DNA from: Acidobacteriota bacterium | GTDB lineage: Bacteria; Acidobacteriota; Blastocatellia; UBA7656 | Reading direction: 5' to 3' | NCBI GenBank assembly: GCA_040754075.1 | Contig: JBFMDH010000003.1 | Coordinates: 264,307-328,306, forward strand | DNA: 64,000 nucleotides | In this document: positions 55,743 to 64,000 of the stretch, in pieces | Numbering within the stretch: the stretch's first letter is position 1 | Layout of the letters: each line of letters starts with the position of its first letter | Made by a program: the position numbers and the translations under genes | Notes under the pieces: generated by a model | The model's input: only the letters and a program-made list of their open reading frames with translations | What the model was told of the DNA's origin: nothing | The model's database searches: none

Positions 55743-55771
55743 TTGACATTGAAAAGCAAAAGGTTGATACT
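55743..55771 (+). promoter_or_regulatory. Strong sigma70-type promoter at the head of the RNA island
   Basis: TTGACA (55743-55748), 17 bases, GATACT (55766-55771), within AT-rich DNA, about 40 bases ahead of the leader ORF at 55812. It is the best-matched promoter in the window. Confidence 0.65.
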
Positions 55772-56184: not shown

Positions 56185-56269
56185 GCCGGGTTGGCAGAAT
56201 GGAATTGCGCTGGTCTGTAAAACCATTGGTCAAACGCGACCACAGAGGTTCGATTCCTCTACCCGGCAT
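56185..56269 (+). tRNA. tRNA-Tyr(GTA)
   Basis: Class II cloverleaf with acceptor GCCGGGT/ACCCGGC, anticodon loop CTGTAAA on a TGGT/ACCA stem, long variable arm (TTGGTC...GACCAC) and T loop TTCGATT. CCA is not encoded. First gene of the array. Confidence 0.93.
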
Positions 56270-56274
56270 CGTTA

Positions 56275-56346
56275 GGAGCGTGAGGTAACTGGCAACCTGA
56301 AGGTCTCCAAAACCTTTCATCCGAGTTCAACTCTCGGCGCTCCTGT
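56275..56346 (+). tRNA. tRNA-Trp(CCA)
   Basis: Acceptor AGGAGCG/CGCTCCT, anticodon loop CTCCAAA on AAGGT/ACCTT, T arm CCGAG-TTCAACT-CTCGG. It begins five bases after tRNA-Tyr. Confidence 0.93.
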
Positions 56347-56350
56347 ATTG

Positions 56351-56434
56351 GGGGGTTCGCATAATTGGTAGTGCAGCGGTCTTGAAAACCGCCGGGTCTT
56401 TAAGCCTGTAAGAGTTCGAGTCTCTTACCCTCCG
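56351..56434 (+). tRNA. tRNA-Ser(TGA)
   Basis: Class II. Acceptor GGGGGGT/ACCCTCC with one G-T pair, anticodon loop CTTGAAA on GCGGT/ACCGC, long variable arm, T loop TTCGAGT. Confidence 0.92.
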
Positions 56435-56436
56435 TT

Positions 56437-56521
56437 GGAGGCGTGGGTGAATGGTAAAACCACCGGTTTGCTAAACCGGCGTCTTTGCAAGGATGTACAG
56501 GTTCGAGTCCTGTCGCCTCCG
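56437..56521 (+). tRNA. tRNA-Ser(GCT)
   Basis: Class II. Acceptor GGAGGCG/CGCCTCC, anticodon loop TTGCTAA on CCGGT/ACCGG, long variable arm, T arm ACAGG-TTCGAGT-CCTGT. Two bases after the previous gene. Confidence 0.93.
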
Positions 56522-56526
56522 TTTCG

Positions 56527-56603
56527 GGACCCGTAGCTCAGTTGGATTGAAGAGCAGCTGAATACGAATCAGCAGGTCGTGGGTTCAAGTCCTACCGGGT
56601 TCA
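56527..56603 (+). tRNA. tRNA-Arg(ACG)
   Basis: Acceptor GGACCCG/CGGGTTC with one wobble, anticodon loop ATACGAA on GCTGA/TCAGC, T loop TTCAAGT. Confidence 0.92.
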
Positions 56604-56712
56604 TCAGTTTAAATGAAGTAGTTTCATTTCGATTTGCGGAAGATTTATTTTCAACTAAATGCCTATACCGGTATTTAGGAAATTAACGATATAGGCAACG
56701 ATGGAGATTCAT

Positions 56713-56954
56713 ATGTACAAGAAAAGCAAATTTGAAGACGGCTTTTTATTTCGAGCGAAGCAGTAAGAGGCGCAAGGGCTTTAATTCGGAGACTCAAGTC
56801 AAACGTGGCATGCAATTCGTTCATAGCGAAAAAGAATTAGTTGAAAAGCTTGGTCGTAACGACCTTTGTCCTTGTGGTTCAAAACGCCGGTTTCAAGAAA
56901 TGCTGTATGAAATCGGGCAGCTATGATGGTTCGCTTCGCAATTATTACTTTTAG
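56713..56954 (+). pseudogene. Frameshifted SEC-C motif protein
   Basis: An ATG at 56713 after a GGAG site begins [11 protein letters not shown], but the frame stops after 17 codons. Shifting one base at a run of five T continues with [20 protein letters not shown] and [14 protein letters not shown] second shift at a run of four A restores [13 protein letters not shown] and the stop TAG at 56954. The corrected product of about 79 aa would be a small protein ending in a SEC-C zinc motif, like the SecA tail. Both breaks are at homopolymers, so sequencing error is as likely as decay. It lies between two tRNA genes. Confidence 0.6.
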
Positions 56955-56972
56955 AGAGTGACTTTAAGGGCT

Positions 56973-57046
56973 GCGGGTGTGGCGGAACTGGCATACGCGC
57001 AACGTTGAGAGCGTTGTTTTTGGAGGTTCAAATCCTCTCATCCGCA
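56973..57046 (+). tRNA. tRNA-Leu(GAG), short variable region
   Basis: Acceptor GCGGGTG/CATCCGC, Leu-type D arm (TGGCGGAACTGGCATACGC), anticodon loop TTGAGAG on CAACG/CGTTG, T arm GGAGG-TTCAAAT-CCTCT. The variable region is only about 4-5 bases (TTTTT), whereas Leu tRNAs normally have a long variable arm, so it may be defective or specialised. Confidence 0.8.
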
Positions 57047-57062
57047 CTGCGAGTTTATCAAT

Positions 57063-57145
57063 GCGGAAGTGGCGAAACCGGCAAACGCAGCAGCCTTAAA
57101 AGCTGTCGCCTTCCAGGTCTGTGAGTTCGACTCTCACCTTCCGCA
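57063..57145 (+). tRNA. tRNA-Leu(TAA)
   Basis: Class II. Acceptor GCGGAAG/CTTCCGC, anticodon loop CTTAAAA on GCAGC/GCTGT, variable arm CGCCTTCCAGGTCT, T arm GTGAG-TTCGACT-CTCAC. Confidence 0.9.
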
Positions 57146-57162
57146 TTCAACGAATGTTTCGT

Positions 57163-57204
57163 TTAACACGGTTTTTAGACAGGGCGAGAACTCGACCGTG
57201 TTAA
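57163..57204. repeat. Spacer hairpin in the tRNA array
   Basis: TTAACACGGT (57163-57172) and ACCGTGTTAA (57195-57204), perfect 10-base arms, between tRNA-Leu(TAA) and tRNA-Leu(CAA). Confidence 0.75.
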
Positions 57205-57215
57205 GCGGAACGGTT

Positions 57216-57291
57216 GCGGGAGTGGCGGAAGCAGGCATACGCGACAGACTCAAAACCTGTTCTTTTGTGGGTTCAACTCCCACCTCCCGCA
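57216..57291 (+). tRNA. tRNA-Leu(CAA)
   Basis: Acceptor GCGGGAG/CTCCCGC, anticodon loop CTCAAAA on ACAGA/CCTGT with a closing mismatch, short variable region (TCTT), T arm GTGGG-TTCAACT-CCCAC. CCA follows the discriminator A in the genomic sequence. Confidence 0.85.
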
Positions 57292-57304
57292 CCAACCGAA
57301 TGAC

Positions 57305-57391
57305 GCGGAAGTGGCGAAACCCGGTAAACGCACCGGTCTTAGAAACCGGCGTCCGCCTGTGACATTGCGGGTTCGACTCCCGCCTTCCGCA
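57305..57391 (+). tRNA. tRNA-Leu(TAG)
   Basis: Class II. Acceptor GCGGAAG/CTTCCGC, anticodon loop CTTAGAA on CCGGT/ACCGG, variable arm CGTCCGCCTGTGACAT, T arm GCGGG-TTCGACT-CCCGC. Confidence 0.92.
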
Positions 57392-57446
57392 TTCGTAAGT
57401 GGCACGAAACCGGCTTCCACAGCCGCTTTCAAGGCAAAGGCATTGA

Positions 57447-57521
57447 GTGGATGTAGCTCAGACAGGCAAGAGCACAGGTATGCCACACCTGAGGTCGCGA
57501 GTTCAAATCTCGTCATCCACT
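57447..57521 (+). tRNA. tRNA-Gly(GCC)
   Basis: Acceptor GTGGATG/CATCCAC, anticodon loop ATGCCAC on CAGGT/ACCTG, T arm GCGAG-TTCAAAT-CTCGT. Acceptor starts with G1-C72 but the G-rich acceptor typical of Gly is relaxed. Confidence 0.9.
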
Positions 57522-57536
57522 CCACAACAAATTCAC

Positions 57537-57611
57537 GCGCGTGTAGCCAAGATGGTTTAAGGCGTGGCTCTGCAAAAGCCATCATCGTGAGTTCAACTCT
57601 CACCACGCGCT
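57537..57611 (+). tRNA. tRNA-Cys(GCA)
   Basis: Acceptor GCGCGTG/CACGCGC, anticodon loop CTGCAAA on TGGCT/AGCCA, T arm GTGAG-TTCAACT-CTCAC, discriminator T as expected for Cys. Confidence 0.92.
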
Positions 57612-57742
57612 CTGAAATTCAGGAAAGGAATAAAAGCCCATGGCAGTTTTGCAAATTGTAATTTCCACGTTCGCTGAAGTCCTTCGTGTTCGCGCACTGT
57701 CATTTGCTTTTACCCGGATTCCGGAAAGGAGGAATAAACAGC

Positions 57743-57847
57743 ATGGTTTTCGATACGACGATTGTTTTGTTCATTGTGAAAGTATTGGCGAAGCTGGTGA
57801 TGTGGTTGATCAGTTGTTTGTTTCTCCTGATTCAATACCTGTTCTAA
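57743..57847 (+). CDS. 34-aa hydrophobic peptide within the tRNA array
   Basis: An AAAGGAGGA site precedes ATG 57743. The peptide is almost entirely a membrane helix (TTIVLFIVKVLAKLVMWLIS, CLFLLIQYLF). It fits a small membrane protein or a type I toxin-like peptide. An overlapping frame from ATG 57640 (75 aa, after GAAAGGAA) covers the same region in another phase and is less convincing. It lies between tRNA-Cys and tRNA-Glu. Confidence 0.45.
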   Translation: MVFDTTIVLFIVKVLAKLVMWLISCLFLLIQYLF

Positions 57848-57892
57848 GTCACACACACCTGGCATAAAACTTTTGCAGGGTGACGTAGTCGT

Positions 57893-57965
57893 GGGGCGTT
57901 ATGCAAGCGGTCAAGCGACGTGGCTTTCAATCACGTTTTCGCGGGTTCGAGTCCCGCACGCCCTG
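57893..57965 (+). tRNA. tRNA-Glu(TTC)
   Basis: Acceptor GGGGCGT/ACGCCCT, anticodon loop CTTTCAA on CGTGG/TCACG, T arm GCGGG-TTCGAGT-CCCGC. Confidence 0.88.
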
Positions 57966-57979
57966 CCAAATATTTTAAT

Positions 57980-58055
57980 GGTGAATGTAGCTCAGAAGAC
58001 TTAGAGCACACGTCTGTGGAACGTGCGGTCGCGGGTTCGAGTCCCGTCATTCACC
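57980..58055 (+). tRNA. tRNA-His(GTG)
   Basis: Acceptor GTGAATG/CATTCAC, with an extra G at position -1 opposite C73 as required for HisRS. Anticodon loop CTGTGGA on CACGT/ACGTG, T arm GCGGG-TTCGAGT-CCCGT. Confidence 0.92.
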
Positions 58056-58064
58056 CCAGCTTGC

Positions 58065-58138
58065 GGAGGCGTAGCTTAGTCCGGCAAAGCAGCGGATTGT
58101 CGATCCGAAGAGCGTGGGTTCAAATCCCATCGTCTCCG
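58065..58138 (+). tRNA. tRNA-Asp(GTC)
   Basis: Acceptor GGAGGCG/CGTCTCC, anticodon loop TTGTCGA on CGGA/TCCG, T arm GTGGG-TTCAAAT-CCCAT, discriminator G. Confidence 0.9.
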
Positions 58139-58154
58139 CCAAATTTTGTGATTT

Positions 58155-58187
58155 CCTTGAAACCGGCTCTCGTAGCTGGTTTCAAGG
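58155..58187. repeat. Spacer hairpin in the tRNA array
   Basis: CCTTGAAACCGGCT and AGCTGGTTTCAAGG (14-base arms, one G-T) with a five-base loop, between tRNA-Asp and tRNA-Lys(CTT). Confidence 0.8.
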
Positions 58188-58213
58188 TAGCCAAAGTTTT
58201 GAAATTGTAACGC

Positions 58214-58287
58214 GGATCGGTAACTCAACTGGCGAGAGTAGCTGACTCTTAATCAGATGGCTGTGAGTTCAAGTCTCACCCGATCCA
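58214..58287 (+). tRNA. tRNA-Lys(CTT)
   Basis: Acceptor GGATCGG/CCGATCC, anticodon loop CTCTTAA on CTGA/TCAG, T arm GTGAG-TTCAAGT-CTCAC. Confidence 0.9.
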
Positions 58288-58292
58288 CTCGC

Positions 58293-58382
58293 GCCCCTGT
58301 AGTTTAACTGGCAAAACAGCAGTCTTATAAGCTGCAAGCACCGGATCAGTGCGCGATTCGAGTTCAAATCTCGACAGGGGCA
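58293..58382 (+). tRNA. tRNA with TAT (Ile) anticodon and a long variable arm
   Basis: Acceptor GCCCCTG/CAGGGGC, anticodon loop CTTATAA on GCAGT/GCTGC, T arm TCGAG-TTCAAAT-CTCGA. The variable region of about 22 bases includes a hairpin (GCAC...GTGC). A class II variable arm is normal for Leu, Ser and Tyr but not Ile, so either the amino-acid identity or the decoding function is unusual. Confidence 0.75.
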
Positions 58383-58383
58383 T

Positions 58384-58437
58384 TACTGAAAGTGATGAGT
58401 AATGAGTGATGAGTAATGAGTGATGAGTAATGAGTCT
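58384..58437. repeat. Tandem-word spacer in the tRNA array
   Basis: About six copies of the word TGATGAG/TAATGAG in direct array between two tRNA genes. No inverted arm is present. Confidence 0.8.
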
Positions 58438-58471
58438 TAATGACGTAGTTCGTTGAACCGATTTGCAATCC

Positions 58472-58545
58472 GGGTTGGTAGCTCAGTCGGCTAGAGCAAG
58501 CGCCTTTTAAGCGCGAGGTCGTGAGTTCAAGTCTCACCCGACCCA
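58472..58545 (+). tRNA. tRNA-Lys(TTT)
   Basis: Acceptor GGGTTGG/CCGACCC, anticodon loop CTTTTAA on GCGC/GCGC, T arm GTGAG-TTCAAGT-CTCAC. Confidence 0.93.
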
Positions 58546-58628
58546 TTTTAAAGAAAGGGAGATGGAGAGAGCAGGAGAAAGGAAATTCATTGAATTCCCT
58601 AAAGCCTGAATCCTCAATGCTAATTTTC

Positions 58629-58700
58629 GGCGGAGTAGTTCAGCAGCAGAACAGGGGTCTCATAAGCCTCATGTCGCAGGTGCAAATCCTGCCTCCGCAA
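58629..58700 (+). tRNA. tRNA-Met(CAT)-like, atypical
   Basis: Acceptor GGCGGAG/CTCCGCA leaves an unpaired G1-A72, reminiscent of initiators. Anticodon loop CTCATAA on GGGGT/GCCTC. The T loop reads TGCAAAT, lacking the near-universal TTC. Initiator, elongator and Ile(CAU) cannot be told apart from sequence. Confidence 0.75.
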
Positions 58701-58716
58701 TTGGTTTGAAATCTGT

Positions 58717-58792
58717 TCCGGTGTAACTCAGTCGGCAGAGTATCCGCTTGTTAAGCGGGAAGTCGCTGGTTCGAGTCCAGCCGCCGGAGCCA
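58717..58792 (+). tRNA. tRNA-Asn(GTT)
   Basis: Acceptor TCCGGTG/CGCCGGA, anticodon loop TTGTTAA on TCCGC/GCGGG, T arm GCTGG-TTCGAGT-CCAGC, discriminator G, and an encoded CCA (58790-58792). Confidence 0.92.
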
Positions 58793-58796
58793 GTTT

Positions 58797-58871
58797 CGGG
58801 GAGTAGCTCAGTCGCGCAAGAGCACACGGCTTGGGACAGTGAGGTCGCTGGTTCGAGTCCAGTTTCCCCGA
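58797..58871 (+). tRNA. tRNA-Pro(TGG)
   Basis: Acceptor CGGGGAG/TTCCCCG, anticodon loop CTTGGGA with one mismatch in the anticodon stem (CACGG/CAGTG), T arm GCTGG-TTCGAGT-CCAGT. Confidence 0.87.
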
Positions 58872-58878
58872 CTTTCCT

Positions 58879-58952
58879 GGGGTAGTAGCTCAATTTGGCA
58901 GAGCGCTGCGCTTGCAACGCAGAGGCTGTCGGTTCAAATCCGACCTATTCCA
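58879..58952 (+). tRNA. tRNA-Ala(TGC)
   Basis: Acceptor GGGGTAG/CTATTCC with two G-T pairs, one at position 3-70 (the alanine identity element). Anticodon loop CTTGCAA on CTGCG/CGCAG, T loop TTCAAAT. Confidence 0.9.
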
Positions 58953-58960
58953 CTGACGAA

Positions 58961-59097
58961 GTAAAAAGTGAAAAGGCAAAAGCGCAAAGAAAAAATTACC
59001 AAGCCAAAAGCGCAGGCAAAGGTTTCGGGTACTTCGGCAAACGCAATGGCAAAAGCTCAAGAATACTTTTTACTTTTACCTTTTGACTTTTTACTTA
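58961..59097. repeat. Palindromic AAAAGGCAAAAG-word repeat in the tRNA array
   Basis: GTAAAAAGTGAAAAGGCAAA and its inverted form CTTTTACCTTTTGACTTTTT, separated by about 75 bases. It belongs to the same word family as 8415, 59480, 59884, 61069 and 62123. Confidence 0.75.
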
Positions 59098-59100
59098 TCT

Positions 59101-59173
59101 TGGAGCGTAGCTCAGTGGTAGTAGCACCCGGCTGATAACCGGGAGGTCAAGAGTTCAACTCTCTTCGCTCCAA
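59101..59173 (+). tRNA. tRNA-Ile(GAT)
   Basis: Acceptor TGGAGCG/CGCTCCA, anticodon loop CTGATAA on CCCGG/CCGGG, T loop TTCAACT, short variable region AGGTC. Confidence 0.93.
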
Positions 59174-59193
59174 TTCGGTTGCCTCGCTGACCT

Positions 59194-59250
59194 GAGCATC
59201 AAGCGATGCTCGCGCACGGTACGGGCATTCCTCCTCCGTACCGTGCGAGC
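59194..59250. repeat. Two overlapping spacer hairpins in the tRNA array
   Basis: GAGCATC/GATGCTC (59194-59211) shares bases with a longer stem, GCTCGCGCACGGTACGG/CCGTACCGTGCGAGC (59208-59250), so the two are mutually exclusive in RNA. Confidence 0.7.
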
Positions 59251-59316
59251 TTGGGGCTTTGATTGGTTAATTGATTAACGGTTTACCGATTAACTAATTT
59301 CGATAATTGAAATCTT

Positions 59317-59391
59317 CGGGGCGTAGTTCAGCGGAATGAGAATGCCTGTCTTCTAAACAGGAGGTTGAAGGTTCAAATCCTTCCGCCCTGA
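59317..59391 (+). tRNA. tRNA-Arg(TCT)
   Basis: Acceptor CGGGGCG/CGCCCTG, anticodon loop CTTCTAA on CCTGT/ACAGG, T arm GAAGG-TTCAAAT-CCTTC. Confidence 0.92.
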
Positions 59392-59396
59392 TTTAC

Positions 59397-59469
59397 GGTT
59401 GGATAGCTCAGTTGGAAGAGCATCGGTCTGAAAAGCCGAGTGTCGGCGGTTCGATTCCGCCTCCAACCA
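59397..59469 (+). tRNA. tRNA-Phe(GAA)
   Basis: Acceptor GGTTGGA/TCCAACC, anticodon loop CTGAAAA on TCGGT/GCCGA, T arm GGCGG-TTCGATT-CCGCC. Confidence 0.93.
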
Positions 59470-59479
59470 CTGAATAAAC

Positions 59480-59551
59480 GCAAAAGGCAAAAGTTAAAAT
59501 GCAAAAGGCAAAAATAGTTTACGGGCTTATACTTTTACCTTGTTACTTTTG
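59480..59551. repeat. Palindromic AAAAGGCAAAAG-word repeat in the tRNA array
   Basis: CAAAAGGCAAAAGTTAAAAT followed by CAAAAGGCAAAA, answered by CTTTTACCTTGTTACTTTTG. Ends nine bases before tRNA-Gln. Confidence 0.75.
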
Positions 59552-59559
59552 CTTGCTGG

Positions 59560-59632
59560 TGCGGAGTAGCGTAATTGGCAACGCGCTCGGCTTTGAACCG
59601 AGAGAGTACAGGTTCGATCCCTGTCTCCGCAG
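59560..59632 (+). tRNA. tRNA-Gln(TTG)
   Basis: Acceptor TGCGGAG/CTCCGCA, anticodon loop CTTTGAA on CTCGG/CCGAG, T loop TTCGATC, discriminator G as usual for Gln. Confidence 0.92.
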
Positions 59633-59637
59633 TCAAC

Positions 59638-59707
59638 GCTTTCGGTTTGGCGAAACTGAGAAACGTTTTGAAGACGCCCATTCACTGAGGCGTCCGCCAC
59701 CGAAAGC
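59638..59707. repeat. Nested spacer hairpin in the tRNA array
   Basis: Outer arms GCTTTCGGT (59638-59646) and ACCGAAAGC (59699-59707); inner stem GACGCC/GGCGTC. Fills the tRNA-Gln to tRNA-Thr gap. Confidence 0.75.
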
Positions 59708-59717
59708 CTATAAAATT

Positions 59718-59791
59718 GCCGATGTAGCTCAGCAGGTTAGAGCAACGGTTTCGTAAATCGTAGGTCGTGAGTTCGACTCTCACCATCGGCT
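59718..59791 (+). tRNA. tRNA-Thr(CGT)
   Basis: Acceptor GCCGATG/CATCGGC, anticodon loop TTCGTAA on ACGGT/ATCGT, T arm GTGAG-TTCGACT-CTCAC. Confidence 0.92.
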
Positions 59792-59802
59792 TTTTGAAAA
59801 TC

Positions 59803-59879
59803 GCAGGTGTAGCTCAGCCTGGTTTAAGAGCGCGAGTCTTCCAAACTCGAAGCCGTGAGTTCAAATCTCACCACCTGCT
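59803..59879 (+). tRNA. tRNA-Gly(TCC)
   Basis: Acceptor GCAGGTG/CACCTGC, anticodon loop CTTCCAA on CGAGT/ACTCG, T arm GTGAG-TTCAAAT-CTCAC. Confidence 0.92.
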
Positions 59880-59883
59880 TTGC

Positions 59884-60006
59884 AAGAAAGCAAAAGGCAA
59901 ATTGCAAAAGGCAAAAGGCAAAAGTTAAGCTGCAAAATTGTCTTTGACCATAAATGTATAAACAGGATTTTTGCCTTTTGATTTTTAACTTTTGCCTTTT
60001 GCCTTC
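59884..60006. repeat. Palindromic AAAAGGCAAAAG-word repeat in the tRNA array
   Basis: Three copies of the word GCAAAAGGCAAA(A) face an inverted set (TTTTGCCTTTTG, CTTTTGCCTTTTGCC) about 60 bases on. Lies between tRNA-Gly(TCC) and tRNA-Val. Confidence 0.75.
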
Positions 60007-60011
60007 ACTCG

Positions 60012-60084
60012 GGTCGGATAGCTCAATCGGTGGAGCGCCGGTCTTACAAACCGGAGGTCGAAGGTTCGATTCCTTCTCCGATCA
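60012..60084 (+). tRNA. tRNA-Val(TAC)
   Basis: Acceptor GGTCGGA/TCCGATC, anticodon loop CTTACAA on CCGGT/ACCGG, T arm GAAGG-TTCGATT-CCTTC. Last gene of the array. Confidence 0.93.
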
Positions 60085-60159: not shown

Positions 60160-60738
60160 ATGAGTTGGAGTATGAAAAGAGAAAAACAGATGATGCCAAT
60201 GACCAGAAAAGTTTTGCTTTTGAATGCCTCATACGAGCCGCTCGGCATCATCAGCGCGCCGCGCGCACTCCGCCTCGTGTGGAAAGAAGCGGCACAGGTC
60301 ATTGAACTCGACGGCGACCGCGTGTTGCGTTCACCGCGCTTTGTTTTTCCTTTGCCTTCGGTGGTGCGTCTGGTTGAGTACATCAACCTGCACAAAAAGC
60401 GCCAGGGACGGGTCGCGAATATGCGCGCCAGCATCATCGCGCGTGACCGGCATCGTTGCCAGTATTGCGGCACAAAAGGCACAGCGTTTGAACTGACGCT
60501 TGACCACATTATGCCGCGTTCACGTGGCGGCGCGTCGGTTCCTGAAAACCTCTGCGCAGCTTGCAAGATTTGCAATCAACGCAAAGGCGACCGCACGCCG
60601 GAAGAAGCCAGAATGCCGCTACTTGCAAACCCCAGCGCCTTGCGTTATGGCTTGGACAAAGCAGCGATTTACGCGGCAGCCGAAAAGCGTCCCGAATGGC
60701 GCAAATATTTGTTCCTCGAAGACGCCATGACAGCTTAG
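60160..60738 (+). CDS. HNH endonuclease
   Basis: This 192-aa protein has the HNH/zinc core of the McrA-like group: RHRCQYCGTKGTAFELTLDH (CxxC and DH), IMPRSRGG, then NLCAACKICNQRKGDRTPEE (second CxxC and the terminal His/Asn region). The N-terminal 80 residues (RKVLLLNASYEPLGIISAPR, RLVEYINLHKKRQG) match a widespread bacterial HNH family of unknown role. GAGGT precedes ATG 60160. Position between a tRNA array and Y-RNA-like units makes an RNA-linked or defence role possible, but this is inference. Confidence 0.88.
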   Translation: MSWSMKREKQMMPMTRKVLLLNASYEPLGIISAPRALRLVWKEAAQVIELDGDRVLRSPRFVFPLPSVVRLVEYINLHKKRQGRVANMRASIIARDRHRCQYCGTKGTAFELTLDHIMPRSRGGASVPENLCAACKICNQRKGDRTPEEARMPLLANPSALRYGLDKAAIYAAAEKRPEWRKYLFLEDAMTA

Positions 60739-60855: not shown

Positions 60856-61062
<207 letters not shown>

Positions 61063-61068
61063 ACAAGT

Positions 61069-61186
61069 TAAAAGTAAAAAGTAAAAAGGCAAAGTGGGTG
61101 ACATTTAATGAACGCCCACTTTTGCCGACCGAATTCGCTGACCAGACTTTTTACTTTTACCTTTGCACTTTTGCCTTTTTATTTTT
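61069..61186. repeat. Palindromic AAAAGGCAAAG-word repeat
   Basis: TTAAAAGTAAAAAGTAAAAA and GGCAAAG face CTTTTTACTTTTACCTTTG and TTTTGCCTTTTT. It ends exactly where the first Y-RNA-like unit begins. Confidence 0.7.
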
Positions 61187-61333
61187 CCGCGCCCCGACCT
61201 TTGAAGCTTACATACTTGCAAGGTTCTCTGAGGTGTTGGTTCGACTCCTTCGTCCCCGATTCACTTGACGGGGAGTAGCTTAATTGGCAGAGCACAGGGG
61301 GAAAAATATGACTGGCTTTTCTAACTTGCGCGG
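61187..61333 (+). ncRNA. Y-RNA-like unit 1 with permuted tRNA module
   Basis: Terminal helix CCGCGC (61187-61192) with GCGCGG (61328-61333). The 5' strand continues CCCGACCTTTGAAGCTTACA; the 3' strand ends CTAACTT. Inside, a tRNA 3' half (T loop TTCGACT 61240, acceptor GTCCCCG 61252-61258) precedes a 5' half (acceptor CGGGGAG 61269-61275, D arm GCTT...GAGC). An anticodon-stem pairing CAGGG (61295-61299) with CTCTG (61226-61230) places the permutation point in the anticodon loop. T stem is weak. Confidence 0.6.
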
Positions 61334-61426
61334 AGATGCACTGATTTTAATTTTTGATTTTTAGTGGTTTTATTGATTGCAGTTTTTATCGAATTTTATT
61401 GGTTCTTTGAATGAATTGAATTTCAC
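61334..61426. other. AT-rich linker between Y-RNA-like units 1 and 2
   Basis: Plain AT-rich sequence (repeated TTTTGATTTTTAG-like words) with no ORF and no stem comparable to the units. Confidence 0.5.
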
Positions 61427-61558
61427 GCTCGCGCCCCGACCGGCGAGGCTTACATACATGGATAAACCAATCTGAAAAATTGGCTGACAGGTTCGATTCC
61501 TGCCATCTCCACCACAATCAGGGGATGATTAAAAACAGCCTTTCAAACTTGCGCGAGC
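61427..61558 (+). ncRNA. Y-RNA-like unit 2 with Phe-like permuted module
   Basis: Terminal helix GCTCGCGC (61427-61434) with GCGCGAGC (61551-61558), differing from unit 1 by paired changes. Inside are a complete anticodon arm (CCAAT-CTGAAAA-ATTGG, GAA), a T arm (loop TTCGATT), acceptor 3' CATCTCC followed by A and an encoded CCA, a six-base spacer, then acceptor 5' GGGGATG. The 5' D arm is replaced by ATTAAAAACAGCC. Confidence 0.6.
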
Positions 61559-61566
61559 ATGATTTT

Positions 61567-61640
61567 GTGAAGAGGTGACAAGGTGAAGAGGTGTAGAGGT
61601 GATGAAGAAAGACGACATCACCCCTTCTCCCCTTCATCTT
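61567..61640. repeat. Palindromic GAAGAGGTG-word linker
   Basis: Tandem GGTGAAGAGGTG words facing ATCACCCCTTCTCCCCTTCAT. The inverse of the CTCTTCACC word found in queA. Fills the linker between units 2 and 3. Confidence 0.75.
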
Positions 61641-61647
61641 AAAATTT

Positions 61648-61792
61648 CCGCGCCCCAACCGGCGAAGCTTACACACATCCCGCTTATAACGGGGAGGTCG
61701 CGGGTTCGATTCCCGTCGGGTGCTTTTGATTTATGCACCCGTAGCTCAGTGGATAGAGCGCCAGTGAACAACAGCTTTTCTAACTTGCGCGG
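61648..61792 (+). ncRNA. Y-RNA-like unit 3 with a complete circularly permuted tRNA module
   Basis: Terminal helix CCGCGC (61648-61653) with GCGCGG (61787-61792); the 5' strand contains GGCGAAGC. The module reads anticodon arm TCCCG-CTTATAA-CGGGG (TAT), variable AGGTC, T arm GCGGG-TTCGATT-CCCGT, acceptor CGGGTGC, an 11-base loop, acceptor GCACCCG (perfect seven-base match), TA, D arm GCTC...GAGC. Every tRNA helix is present but the order is rotated at the D-stem/anticodon-stem junction. Confidence 0.72.
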
Positions 61793-61867
61793 ATTTGCAC
61801 TTATATTTTTTTTGTTTTGCAATTTTGTTCTTTGAAAAATTTTTGAATGATTGAGTTAAAGATTTTC

Positions 61868-61931
61868 CCGCGCCCTGACCGGGCGAGCTTACATACCGTC
61901 CAAGTTTGCCAGGCTCTTCCAACTTGCGCGG
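61868..61931 (+). ncRNA. Y-RNA-like unit 4, minimal form
   Basis: Only 64 bases: CCGCGC (61868-61873), CCTGACCGGGCGAGCTTACA, a short internal stretch, then CAACTTGCGCGG. It has both ends and the 5' consensus but no tRNA module, which defines the constant part of the family. Confidence 0.55.
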
Positions 61932-61956
61932 AGACTCAAAAACTCAAAGGGTTTAT

Positions 61957-62107
61957 CCCGCGCCCTGACACGCAAGGCTTACACACTTAACTGGTACACG
62001 CATCGAGCAGAAACCTCGACGGTCGCAAGACCTTGTGAGTTCAAATCTCACCAAAAGCCCAGGCTTTTGTGGCGAAAATAAGCAAATGCCTTTCAAACTT
62101 GCGCGGG
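61957..62107 (+). ncRNA. Y-RNA-like unit 5 with class II permuted tRNA module
   Basis: Terminal helix CCCGCGC with GCGCGGG (62101-62107). The module begins with a D-loop 3' part (AACTGGTACACGC), then anticodon arm TCGAG-CAGAAAC-CTCGA, a variable arm GGTC-GCAA-GACC, T arm GTGAG-TTCAAAT-CTCAC, acceptor CAAAAGC/GCTTTTG (loop of four), then a D-loop 5' part (TGGCGAAAATAAGC). It resembles a Leu-type tRNA cut in the D loop. T33 is replaced by A, so the anticodon is not standard. Confidence 0.6.
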
Positions 62108-62122
62108 AATTTCGATATCTGG

Positions 62123-62195
62123 AAAGTAAAAAGTCAAAAGGCAAAAGTAAAAACCTATTGCGGTAACTTTTTATTTTTACCTTTTAACTTTTTCT
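62123..62195. repeat. Palindromic AAAAGGCAAAAG-word linker
   Basis: AAAGTAAAAAGTCAAAAGGC and AAAAGTAAAAA face TTTTTATTTTTACCTTTTA. Lies between units 5 and 6. Confidence 0.7.
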
Positions 62196-62200
62196 TTCGC

Positions 62201-62348
62201 ATCGCGTCTGCGCCCTGACCCGCAAGGCTTACATACTGGTAAAAACCAATCTCCAAAATTGGTCATGTAGGTTCGATTCCTATCCTGCCCCGCCAAATTT
62301 ATGGGGCAGCTTAAAAAGCACAGCCTTTCAAACTTGCGCGGACGCGAT
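62201..62348 (+). ncRNA. Y-RNA-like unit 6 with Trp-like permuted module
   Basis: A 13-base terminal helix, ATCGCGTCTGCGC with GCGCGGACGCGAT (one G-T). Inside: TGGTAAAAA (D-loop remnant), anticodon arm CCAAT-CTCCAAA-ATTGG (CCA), T arm GTAGG-TTCGATT-CCTAT, acceptor CTGCCCC, G and encoded CCA (62293-62295), seven-base spacer, acceptor GGGGCAG. The 5' D arm is missing, as in unit 2, with the same CAGCCTTTCAAACTT ending. Confidence 0.62.
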
Positions 62349-62353
62349 TCGGC

Positions 62354-62446
62354 TTTGAAGAGGTGAAAAGGTGTAGAGGTGAAGAGGTGAAGTCATGGGG
62401 TCGTGATTCACCCGTTCACCCCCTCACCCTTTCACCTTTTCGTCAT
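62354..62446. repeat. Palindromic GAAGAGGTG-word linker
   Basis: Four GAAGAGGTG/GAAAAGGTG words face TTCACCCGTTCACCCCCTCA and CCTTTCACCTTTT. Lies between units 6 and 7; same word family as 61567. Confidence 0.75.
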
Positions 62447-62451
62447 TTTTG

Positions 62452-62576
62452 CCGCGCCCCAACCGGTAGGGCATACATACCCCACCAAAACAACCAACGA
62501 GGTGCGTGTAAAGGGAAACATGCTGCAAGCCTGAGACCTGATAGCAGGCAACAAACTGCCCTTTCAACTTGCGCGG
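62452..62576 (+). ncRNA. Y-RNA-like unit 7, divergent cargo
   Basis: Terminal helix CCGCGC (62452-62457) with GCGCGG (62571-62576) and the family ends (CCCCAACCGGTAGGGCATAC; CCCTTTCAACTT). The interior lacks T and D loops but holds a hairpin (GCCTG...CAGGC) and CCTG-ATAG-CAGG. It may be a degenerate or functionally different member. Confidence 0.5.
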
Positions 62577-62582
62577 TAAGTA

Positions 62583-62740: not shown

Positions 62741-63223
62741 ATGCTGGATACTATTGCAGTCACAATCGAACCGGTGGATACGATTAACACCACAGAGCCT
62801 TATCATGACACCAGCGAACTCGAACGCCTCATTGCGGCATTTGAAGCCTGTTCCTTGCCAAAACCCAAATGGACACATCAGGCGCATTTGATGGTCGCGC
62901 TCTGGTACAACCTCCACTACGACCCGGAACCGGCACTCAATAAAGTGCGTGAAGCGATTTTAGCGTACAACGCAGCCACCGGCACACTACAAACACCGAC
63001 CGGCGGTTATCACGAAACGATGACGATCTTCTGGATGTGGGCAGTTCGCGCGTATCTTGCAGGCGCAAACGAAAAGACTTCGATAGTTGAATTGGCAAAC
63101 GGACTATTAAGGAGTAAATACGCCGAGAGAAAATTTCCATTTGTATATTACAGCGCCGAACGCTTGTTTTCGTGGGACGCGCGAACCGCGTGGATGGAAC
63201 CGGATATAGGACCATTGAAATGA
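62741..63223 (+). CDS. Conserved-looking 160-aa protein of unknown function
   Basis: Starts at ATG 62741 after AAAGGAG; the frame opens at 62633 but that part is repeat DNA. The protein is soluble, mostly helical, with KPKWTHQAHLMVALWYNLHY, then AILAYNAATGTLQTPTGGYH, and FWMWAVRAYL. A WTHxAHL-type motif with a later GGYHET gives two conserved-looking histidines, which could bind metal. I cannot name a family. It is placed between the Y-RNA-like units and the Ro-like gene. Confidence 0.65.
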   Translation: MLDTIAVTIEPVDTINTTEPYHDTSELERLIAAFEACSLPKPKWTHQAHLMVALWYNLHYDPEPALNKVREAILAYNAATGTLQTPTGGYHETMTIFWMWAVRAYLAGANEKTSIVELANGLLRSKYAERKFPFVYYSAERLFSWDARTAWMEPDIGPLK

Positions 63224-63225
63224 GT

Positions 63226-64000
<775 letters not shown>

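Follow-up and report, generated by a model that had tools for sequence, protein, structure and literature searches.

A host-redundant tRNA gene array beside a Ro60/Rsr-like gene and tandem Y-RNA-like units in an Acidobacteriota genome

The 64,000-nucleotide stretch analyzed here (hereafter the window; contig JBFMDH010000003.1 of assembly GCA_040754075.1, an Acidobacteriota bacterium) carries an array of 28 tRNA genes that is followed on the same strand by an HNH endonuclease gene, a 66-aa open reading frame (ORF) designated sm66, seven tandem Y-RNA-like units (61184-62579), the ORF orf160, and a Ro60/Rsr-like gene (Table 1). Several of the units enclose a circularly permuted tRNA. We tentatively read the region as a translation-protection island in which accessory, separately evolving elongator tRNAs act together with the HNH protein, sm66, the seven Y-like units, and the Ro-like protein, a reading that we rate a little short of an even chance. 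The genome of the window is designated G000; other G codes denote genomes compared with it, L codes loci, and C codes contigs.

An accessory tRNA set distinct from the housekeeping genes

ARAGORN places 28 tRNA genes, all on the + strand, in a span of exactly 56185-60084, and the Rfam tRNA model recovers the same 28 (49-74 bits against a gathering score of 29; E <= 1.5e-7). The anticodons called by ARAGORN serve 20/20 amino acids. These results bear out an earlier note, made from the sequence alone, that had described a single-strand array of 28 genes covering all 20 amino acids and had listed the same anticodons. A tRNA array unit is defined by at least 20 tRNA genes at a density of at least two per kb, and here 28 genes lie within 3.9 kb. 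Judged by U33, which is present in 28/28 genes, and by the T-loop motif TTCRA, present in 27/28, the array tRNAs look functional.

A housekeeping role of the array is ruled out by the rest of the genome, a 7.58-Mb draft in 68 contigs. With 150 of 413 candidates scored, at least 70 tRNA matches were found, comprising 27 array members (the array tRNA-Trp is absent among the matches listed) and at least 43 genes elsewhere; the finding that the earlier note had named as fatal to its view, that these are the only tRNA genes of the genome, is thereby excluded. The redundancy with a housekeeping set that characterizes array units is seen here in the 43 other genes and a split tRNA-Asn gene. The latter, interrupted in its anticodon loop by ~235 nt that are perhaps a group I intron (G000:C28:50911-51223; L109, L110), also disposes of the idea that tRNA-Asn is lacking outside the array. 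tRNA-Ile-GAT and tRNA-Ala-TGC are not among the 43 outside tRNAs of the 68-contig draft, in which only Ile-GAT was sought, by pattern; this absence may be an assembly gap. Genes for both tRNAs are often located in rRNA spacers.

Comparison with the family relative G001 supports the suggestion that the set evolves apart from the housekeeping genes. Identity to the gene with the same anticodon averages 79.6% for array tRNAs (n=24) vs 92.4% for housekeeping tRNAs (n=24, the host genes, out of 43, for which the 26 G001 tRNAs sampled include a counterpart), with one housekeeping outlier, Glu-CTC at 66%. The array value is the lower in 10/10 anticodons paired across both comparisons (sign test p 0.002), where the Met value mixes several genes. 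Moreover, 20/24 array tRNAs resemble the G001 array more closely than they do the genes of their own host, a pattern that fails beyond G001, the closest relative: the corresponding counts are 6/20 for G002, 12/21 for G006, 13/24 for G343, 11/25 for G057, 5/23 for a Kovacikia plasmid array, and 1/14 for a phage (the last two described below).

The irregular stems that the earlier note had seen in several of these tRNAs hold up in part. Anticodon stems are mostly intact (mean 4.8/5 pairs), whereas the mean Rfam score is modestly lower for the array than for the 43 other tRNAs (61.7 vs 65.3 bits; Mann-Whitney p 0.03), the D-loop GG is present in 25/28 array tRNAs vs 43/43 others, two of the four array tRNA-Leu are short (75-76 nt without CCA), and the tRNA-Ile with anticodon UAU has a long variable arm. 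Short-arm tRNA-Leu are frequent in such arrays (2/4 here, 5/5 in G343 at 74-78 nt, and 5/5 in Kovacikia at 73-75 nt); the five host tRNA-Leu measure 82-88 nt by ARAGORN. The arrays of G000, G001, and G002 all keep the long-arm tRNA-Ile-UAU, and that of G006 has an odd, longer form of it (window 58293-58382; L043 6089-6180; L044 10865-10954; L045 7601-7696); by reading, the bases that pair in the variable-arm stem differ from genome to genome. A review counts UAU among the commonest anticodons of 8/4 allo-tRNAs (PMC7609411).

Two further observations concern the spaces between genes. A small SEC-C-like ORF lies between array tRNAs (56714-56972) and has a counterpart near the Kovacikia Ro gene (L055 11670-11780); in both copies alike the conserved end is in the +1 frame, at a UUU CAA site. 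By reading, the frame is broken a second time in the window copy, which makes decay and programmed frameshifting equally likely. AT-rich inverted repeats of the AAAAGGCAAAAGTAAAAA type were read between tRNA genes (58955-59099, 59475-59545, 59880-60005) and around the Y-like units (61060-61190, 62105-62207).

Permuted tRNAs, rRNA mimics, and the Ro-like protein

The earlier note had also described a Ro-like module next to the array. The module is real, and it includes Y-like units with permuted tRNAs that were absent from that description. In each unit a 5' strand (CCGCGCCCYRAC...RGCTTACAYAC) pairs with a 3' strand (GCTTTTCAACTTGCGCGG), forming a stem with an internal loop; this stem, among the best conserved parts of the units, is a putative Ro-binding site. 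Inside it, U2, U3, U5, U6, and weakly U1 hold a tRNA in circularly permuted order (anticodon arm, T-arm, acceptor 3' strand, loop, acceptor 5' strand, D-arm), the D-arm of U2 and U6 being slight by reading. Rfam's model of YrlA (RF02553), a known bacterial Y RNA, matches U3 in the same permuted layout at 36.2 bits, and as in YrlA-type RNAs the units lie near a Ro gene and close a stem around a tRNA-like domain.

The permuted fold is strongly supported by covariation. The set consisted of 16 permuted units from Acidobacteriota and cyanobacteria, hand-picked as alignable among 28 that satisfied the rule given below, and left out U2, U5, U6, and nine others. In this set 97.8% of cells are paired, compared with only 32-48% in slid alignments, and 16/31 pairs show two-sided changes; in the acceptor helix 6/7 pairs do. 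Cells with two-sided changes number 60 vs 17.3 in shuffles, and 0/500 shuffles reach 60. Acceptor strands also pair better within their own unit than when swapped between units (6.8/7 vs 3.6 pairs; 31 units of the first rule). Within-unit acceptor pairing and covariation together rule out ordinary intron-containing tRNA genes at 61184-62579.

Units of this design extend well beyond the window. A motif scan of 27 sources returned 99 units in 22 of them. A first rule for permuted units (31 units) admitted canonical ones; the second assigns 28/99 as permuted, with 1/4950 full shuffles and 601/12400 tail shuffles positive as background, and divides the remainder into 35 units with canonical tRNA cores, 11 short units, 10 others, 6 that join the sarcin-ricin loop to the GTPase-associated center, 6 that correspond to helices 69-71 of 23S rRNA, and 3 of the U7 type. 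Two of the rule-positive units (L066 9346 and L068 9449) read as canonical, leaving ~26 permuted, and three of the "canonical" units, sorted there on their first letters, are short by reading (L043 2222, L055 10605, L070 2859; inserts of 38-48 nt). One short unit lies, by reading, inside a tRNA gene on Kovacikia plasmid pA. Among 396 genomes of the phylum the strict stem motif occurs in five (G000, 7 sites; G001, 5; G044, 2; G057, 5; G395, 1); it misses G343, which has a unit by a looser scan, and the G395 site is possibly chance because controls gave 6 single matches. Palindromic short inserts were read within the T-loop of permuted units at L071 8123-8291 and L064 9147-9321.

The likeness of the two rRNA-related types to 23S rRNA sites is strong. 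BLAST matches cover Escherichia coli 23S positions 1055-1113 at 78-84% identity in 4/6 units of the sarcin-ricin type and positions 1909-1941 at 92-96% in 6/6 units of the helix 69-71 type. The sarcin-ricin 12-mer AGTACGAGAGGA, which is unique in the E. coli rrn stretch (23S position 2654), is exact in 4/6 units and carries one change in L065 and L071. A large subunit (LSU) rRNA model matches L055 at 55 bits and L064 at 42 bits (E 9e-12). A weak likeness of three canonical units to 23S positions 1376-1402 was taken as chance, 12/1980 shuffles matching at E <= 0.01. The insert of U7 gave no match to E. coli rRNA by BLAST nor to Rfam.

The protein encoded downstream of the units was assigned through its G001 orthologue, which by predicted fold is a Ro60/Rsr protein. 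The Pfam TROVE model (PF05731) matches 0/12 members of the Ro-like family scanned, the vWA_Ro60 match falls below cut-off, and a PDB profile search gives a weak match to a TROVE protein (E 0.0015). Modeled with AlphaFold2 (mean pLDDT 75.5, pTM 0.58), the G001 orthologue has the helical-repeat part and vWA domain of Ro60/Rsr; the best match of the model is Ro60 1yvp (E 8e-12), with Deinococcus Rsr 2nvo and Thermus-phage Ro60 9l5y also listed, and matches to Ro60/Rsr structures range from E 8e-12 to 1e-11 with TM scores of 0.54-0.62. The G001 protein is 63-65% identical to those of three other genomes of the class and 51-72% identical to those of 14 cyanobacterial loci. In the window's genome, an intein with a LAGLIDADG domain (L002:8711-10066) splits the metal-site motif of the vWA domain; the G001 orthologue has none. 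The sm66 model has a beta-grasp-like fold (mean pLDDT 88) with a weak match to ubiquitin-like ISG15 (E 0.25). G343 carries a ThiF-like gene downstream, and the annotation of pAfl69 also shows one there. In Westiellopsis (L064 12412-19157), genes for vWA proteins and AAA ATPases lie downstream of Ro, with a sarcin-ricin/GTPase-center unit just before the AAA genes.

Linkage of the array and the module across genomes

Four of six family relatives were searched for the array. G001, G002, and G006 have it with gene order almost unchanged, and after each array comes an HNH gene whose product is 67-83% identical; in G001 the array shares the same chromosomal place beside the atp genes (atpG 80%, VanZ 57%). 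In G004, with 46 tRNAs listed vs 64-67 in the others, no array appears among the matches listed. The HNH protein is found at E <= 1e-50 in 36/396 phylum genomes, and 8/30 HNH loci checked (six further loci lie outside this check) have at least seven tRNAs within 1.5 kb, so that the endonuclease association of tRNA array units, frequent and not universal, is seen here as well. The RNA ligase RtcB is encoded in 5/5 genomes queried. In G002 its gene (L044 13107-14615) lies ~0.5 kb upstream of the array on the same strand; in G000 (C11), G001, G343, and G057 it is on a contig other than the array's.

The Ro protein occurs at E <= 1e-10 in 6/396 phylum genomes (in G372 as two pieces). It adjoins the array in 4/8 genomes with array and HNH gene (G000, G001, G343, G057) and occurs in 2/388 others, a count that misses arrays without an HNH gene or at the six HNH loci outside the check. 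Beyond the phylum, sm66 accompanies Ro in 13/14 cyanobacterial loci, whose flanks hold 0-4 ARAGORN tRNA matches and no array, and the Ro module is found on two cyanobacterial plasmids. On plasmid pA of Kovacikia minuta, 32 tRNA genes lie just upstream of sm66, the units, and the Ro gene. A 595-kb phage record (LR756511; L057) encodes a Ro protein (48%), a distant sm66, and 17 tRNAs in 25 kb; a motif scan of it found no Y-like unit, and Rfam at E 0.01 returned only tRNAs in L057 7500-12000. In viral contigs no relative of the Ro protein was confirmed. A TROVE protein in a few jumbo phages has been reported (PMC7824862).

A scan of the region found 2 promoter-like sites vs a mean of 6.8 in shuffles, and the better of them is 0.4 kb 5' of the array. 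Because this site precedes the array, a single transcript for the island is possible, and the array is possibly cotranscribed with the HNH gene, sm66, the Y-like units, and the Ro-like gene.

Table 1. Features of the tRNA array and the adjoining Ro/Y-RNA-like module (window coordinates)
Feature	Position	Strand	Evidence or remark
Promoter-like site TTGACA-17-GATACT	55743..55771	+	consensus match only; region's best; possible promoter of array and module
tRNA-Tyr(GTA)	56185..56268	+	ARAGORN, Rfam
tRNA-Trp(CCA)	56273..56346	+	ARAGORN, Rfam
tRNA-Ser(TGA)	56349..56435	+	ARAGORN, Rfam
tRNA-Ser(GCT)	56436..56522	+	ARAGORN, Rfam
tRNA-Arg(ACG)	56527..56603	+	ARAGORN, Rfam
tRNA-Leu(GAG), short variable arm	56973..57047	+	ARAGORN, Rfam
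tRNA-Leu(TAA)	57062..57146	+	ARAGORN, Rfam
tRNA-Leu(CAA), short variable arm	57216..57294	+	ARAGORN, Rfam
tRNA-Leu(TAG)	57305..57391	+	ARAGORN, Rfam
tRNA-Gly(GCC)	57447..57524	+	ARAGORN, Rfam
tRNA-Cys(GCA)	57537..57612	+	ARAGORN, Rfam
tRNA-Glu(TTC)	57893..57968	+	ARAGORN, Rfam
tRNA-His(GTG)	57981..58058	+	ARAGORN, Rfam
tRNA-Asp(GTC)	58065..58141	+	ARAGORN, Rfam
tRNA-Lys(CTT)	58214..58288	+	ARAGORN, Rfam
tRNA-Ile(TAT), long variable arm	58293..58382	+	ARAGORN, Rfam
tRNA-Lys(TTT)	58472..58545	+	ARAGORN, Rfam
tRNA-Met(CAT), elongator type by reading	58629..58700	+	ARAGORN, Rfam
tRNA-Asn(GTT)	58717..58792	+	ARAGORN, Rfam
tRNA-Pro(TGG)	58797..58872	+	ARAGORN, Rfam
tRNA-Ala(TGC)	58879..58953	+	ARAGORN, Rfam
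tRNA-Ile(GAT)	59100..59174	+	ARAGORN, Rfam
tRNA-Arg(TCT)	59316..59392	+	ARAGORN, Rfam
tRNA-Phe(GAA)	59397..59470	+	ARAGORN, Rfam
tRNA-Gln(TTG)	59560..59632	+	ARAGORN, Rfam
tRNA-Thr(CGT)	59718..59791	+	ARAGORN, Rfam
tRNA-Gly(TCC)	59803..59879	+	ARAGORN, Rfam
tRNA-Val(TAC)	60012..60084	+	ARAGORN, Rfam
HNH endonuclease gene, recurring array partner	60160..60738	+	HNH_5 E 4e-15
sm66, 66-aa ORF, predicted beta-grasp-like, conserved 5' of Y-like units	60862..61062	+	
Y-like unit U1; weak permuted tRNA, 5/7 acceptor pairs by reading, under second rule's threshold	61184..61336	+	
Y-like unit U2; permuted tRNA, anticodon GAA (Phe), CCA retained in loop	61427..61558	+	
Y-like unit U3; permuted tRNA, anticodon TAT (Ile)	61645..61795	+	
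Y-like unit U4; stem alone, without tRNA	61865..61934	+	
Y-like unit U5; permuted Leu-like tRNA (Leu by reading), without readable anticodon loop	61956..62108	+	
Y-like unit U6; permuted tRNA, anticodon CCA (Trp), CCA retained in loop	62205..62344	+	
Y-like unit U7; conserved insert, resemblance not found; also in two cyanobacteria	62449..62579	+	
orf160, 160-aa ORF; also near Ro in G001 (fragment) and several cyanobacteria	62741..63223	+	
Ro60/Rsr-like gene start	63345..64000	+	continues past window (L002:7652-10588)

Candidate roles of the island

If the region is a translation-protection island, the Ro protein would carry the Y-like RNAs through their common conserved stem, the tRNA domains of the units (and, in relatives, rRNA domains) would engage or draw off the enzymes by which tRNAs and rRNA are cut or modified, and the array would refill the tRNA pool once housekeeping tRNAs had been cut or trapped. 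A stand-by supply for times when host tRNAs are damaged, the role proposed for the array in the earlier note, is plausible because RtcB adjoins the G002 array and translation-targeting antibiotics activate an Anabaena operon of 26 tRNA genes (PMC10272220). A more specific version of this reading, which we regard as doubtful, is a modular RNA-decoy system serving as an anti-ribotoxin immunity island: one Ro protein would hold many Y-like RNAs by their handle stems, each copying a vulnerable site of translation, with spare tRNAs alongside. A ubiquitin-like tag (sm66 with the ThiF-like gene of some loci) is possibly part of it. The decoy idea itself is in print as the suggestion that YrlA might inhibit an anticodon nuclease (PMC7790460).

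Several results weigh against the island and decoy readings. The anticodon loop is identical to a host loop in 15/24 comparable array tRNAs, and the array is therefore not plainly built against loop-reading nucleases. Array and module also occur separately: neither Ro nor a Y-like unit was found in the stretches of G002 read (nor Ro genome-wide) or in ~46 kb read of G006, and in G044, which has Ro and units, the 20 kb read contain no array. The association of array and Ro (Fisher p 1e-6) comes from a test that ignores kinship. The + strand of the region bears three terminator-like sites, although such sites are in all fewer than in shuffles. As to the units, the YrlA score of U3 lies below the gathering score of 69, an anticodon loop cannot be read in 14/28 of the permuted units that satisfied the second rule, and no LSU rRNA match reaches the curated score in L064, L066, L068, L069, L071, or L075. 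Mimics of the sarcin-ricin loop and of helices 69-71 are absent from the window's seven units.

The main rival of the decoy reading is a tether or recruitment role, unlikely in our estimation, in which RNA quality control is served by Y-like RNAs that draw proteins acting on tRNAs or ribosomes to the Ro ring, the tRNA and rRNA shapes being handles for nucleases such as PNPase, modification enzymes, or translation factors. The units share a common stem while their other domain varies, as such a role would have it. The sarcin-ricin loop joined to the GTPase center is the factor-binding site of the ribosome. In Deinococcus, a Y RNA tethers Rsr to PNPase (PMC7790460). Tethering alone, however, leaves unexplained both the full tRNA set beside the module and the intact anticodon loops of several permuted units.

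It is rather improbable that the array simply supplies codons, its extra elongator tRNAs lifting translation capacity in slow or stressed growth, with the Ro module as an independent neighbor. All 20 amino acids are served, the Anabaena trn operon responds to translational stress (PMC10272220), and arrays without a nearby Ro gene occur in G002, G006, G272, G288, and G069; however, linkage to Ro recurs in four Acidobacteriota and in Kovacikia, and the array tRNAs are poorly conserved. Less probable again is that the array is anti-defense or mobile cargo of small or absent benefit to the host. Spread by an HNH endonuclease, plasmids, and phages has been proposed for mycobacterial arrays, which also contain HNH genes (PMC5966550, PMC12803027), and the HNH gene adjoining arrays at the eight loci, the two cyanobacterial plasmids, and the Ro gene among the 17 phage tRNAs fit such spread. 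Against it stand the same chromosomal place beside the atp genes in two genera, the gene order largely kept across genera, and the finding of no integrase among the part of the ORFs scanned in the window and L002. It is very unlikely that functional permuted tRNAs mature from some of the units through excision of the stem and ligation of the ends by RtcB: cloverleaf parts including an anticodon loop and CCA are present in U2 and U6 and RtcB is encoded in all genomes queried, but the orthologous units U3 and V4 differ in anticodon (TAT, ACA), half of the permuted units lack a readable anticodon loop, and the stem to be discarded ranks among the best conserved parts.

The elements of the proposed protection island have known counterparts. 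Like mycobacterial and phage arrays and the Anabaena trn operon, it has at least 20 packed, one-strand, host-redundant tRNA genes, often with an adjacent HNH gene, an association already described (PMC5966550, PMC12803027, PMC6409571), and both known arrays and this family occur on chromosomes, plasmids, and phages. Unlike those arrays, it is joined to a Ro/Y-RNA-like module and keeps one chromosomal place in two genera. The Salmonella rsr-yrlBA-rtcBA operon, regulated by damaged tRNAs, likewise combines a Ro60 orthologue, Y RNAs with a tRNA-like domain, an RNA repair context, and the permuted order of YrlA (PMC7790460); here, in contrast, there are seven units, an anticodon arm is added in several, a tRNA array is adjacent, and RtcB is encoded on another contig. 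YrlA (RF02553) shares with the units the order T-arm, acceptor 3' strand, loop, acceptor 5' strand, and D-arm within a stem, and differs in the low score of U3 (36 vs 69 bits) and in that other units, here or in relatives, hold canonical cores or pieces of 23S rRNA. The Ro-like protein shares the predicted helical part and vWA domain of Ro60/Rsr (1yvp, 2nvo, 9l5y) and differs in the missing Pfam TROVE match and, in this genome, the intein. Y RNAs with a tRNA-like domain are thus known (PMC7790460); new, as far as we searched the open-licence literature, are the occurrence in tandem Y-like RNAs of entire permuted tRNAs that include an anticodon arm, the rRNA-mimicking units, and the linkage of units with a tRNA array. 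Among titles and abstract starts in that literature we found no paper on rRNA-mimicking Y RNAs.

Long tRNA arrays have, to our knowledge, no settled purpose, and we know of no answer to why bacterial Y RNAs resemble tRNAs. With the array and the tRNA-like Y RNAs in one conserved island, both puzzles become directly testable. Besides tRNAs, the Y-like RNAs of related loci mimic ribosomal sites that are attacked by ribotoxins. If the decoy reading is true, the decoy sites would be permuted tRNAs with anticodon loops, canonical tRNA cores, helices 69-71, and the chimera of sarcin-ricin loop and GTPase-associated center, and Acidobacteriota would share with cyanobacteria an anti-ribotoxin island of which a huge phage carries some parts.

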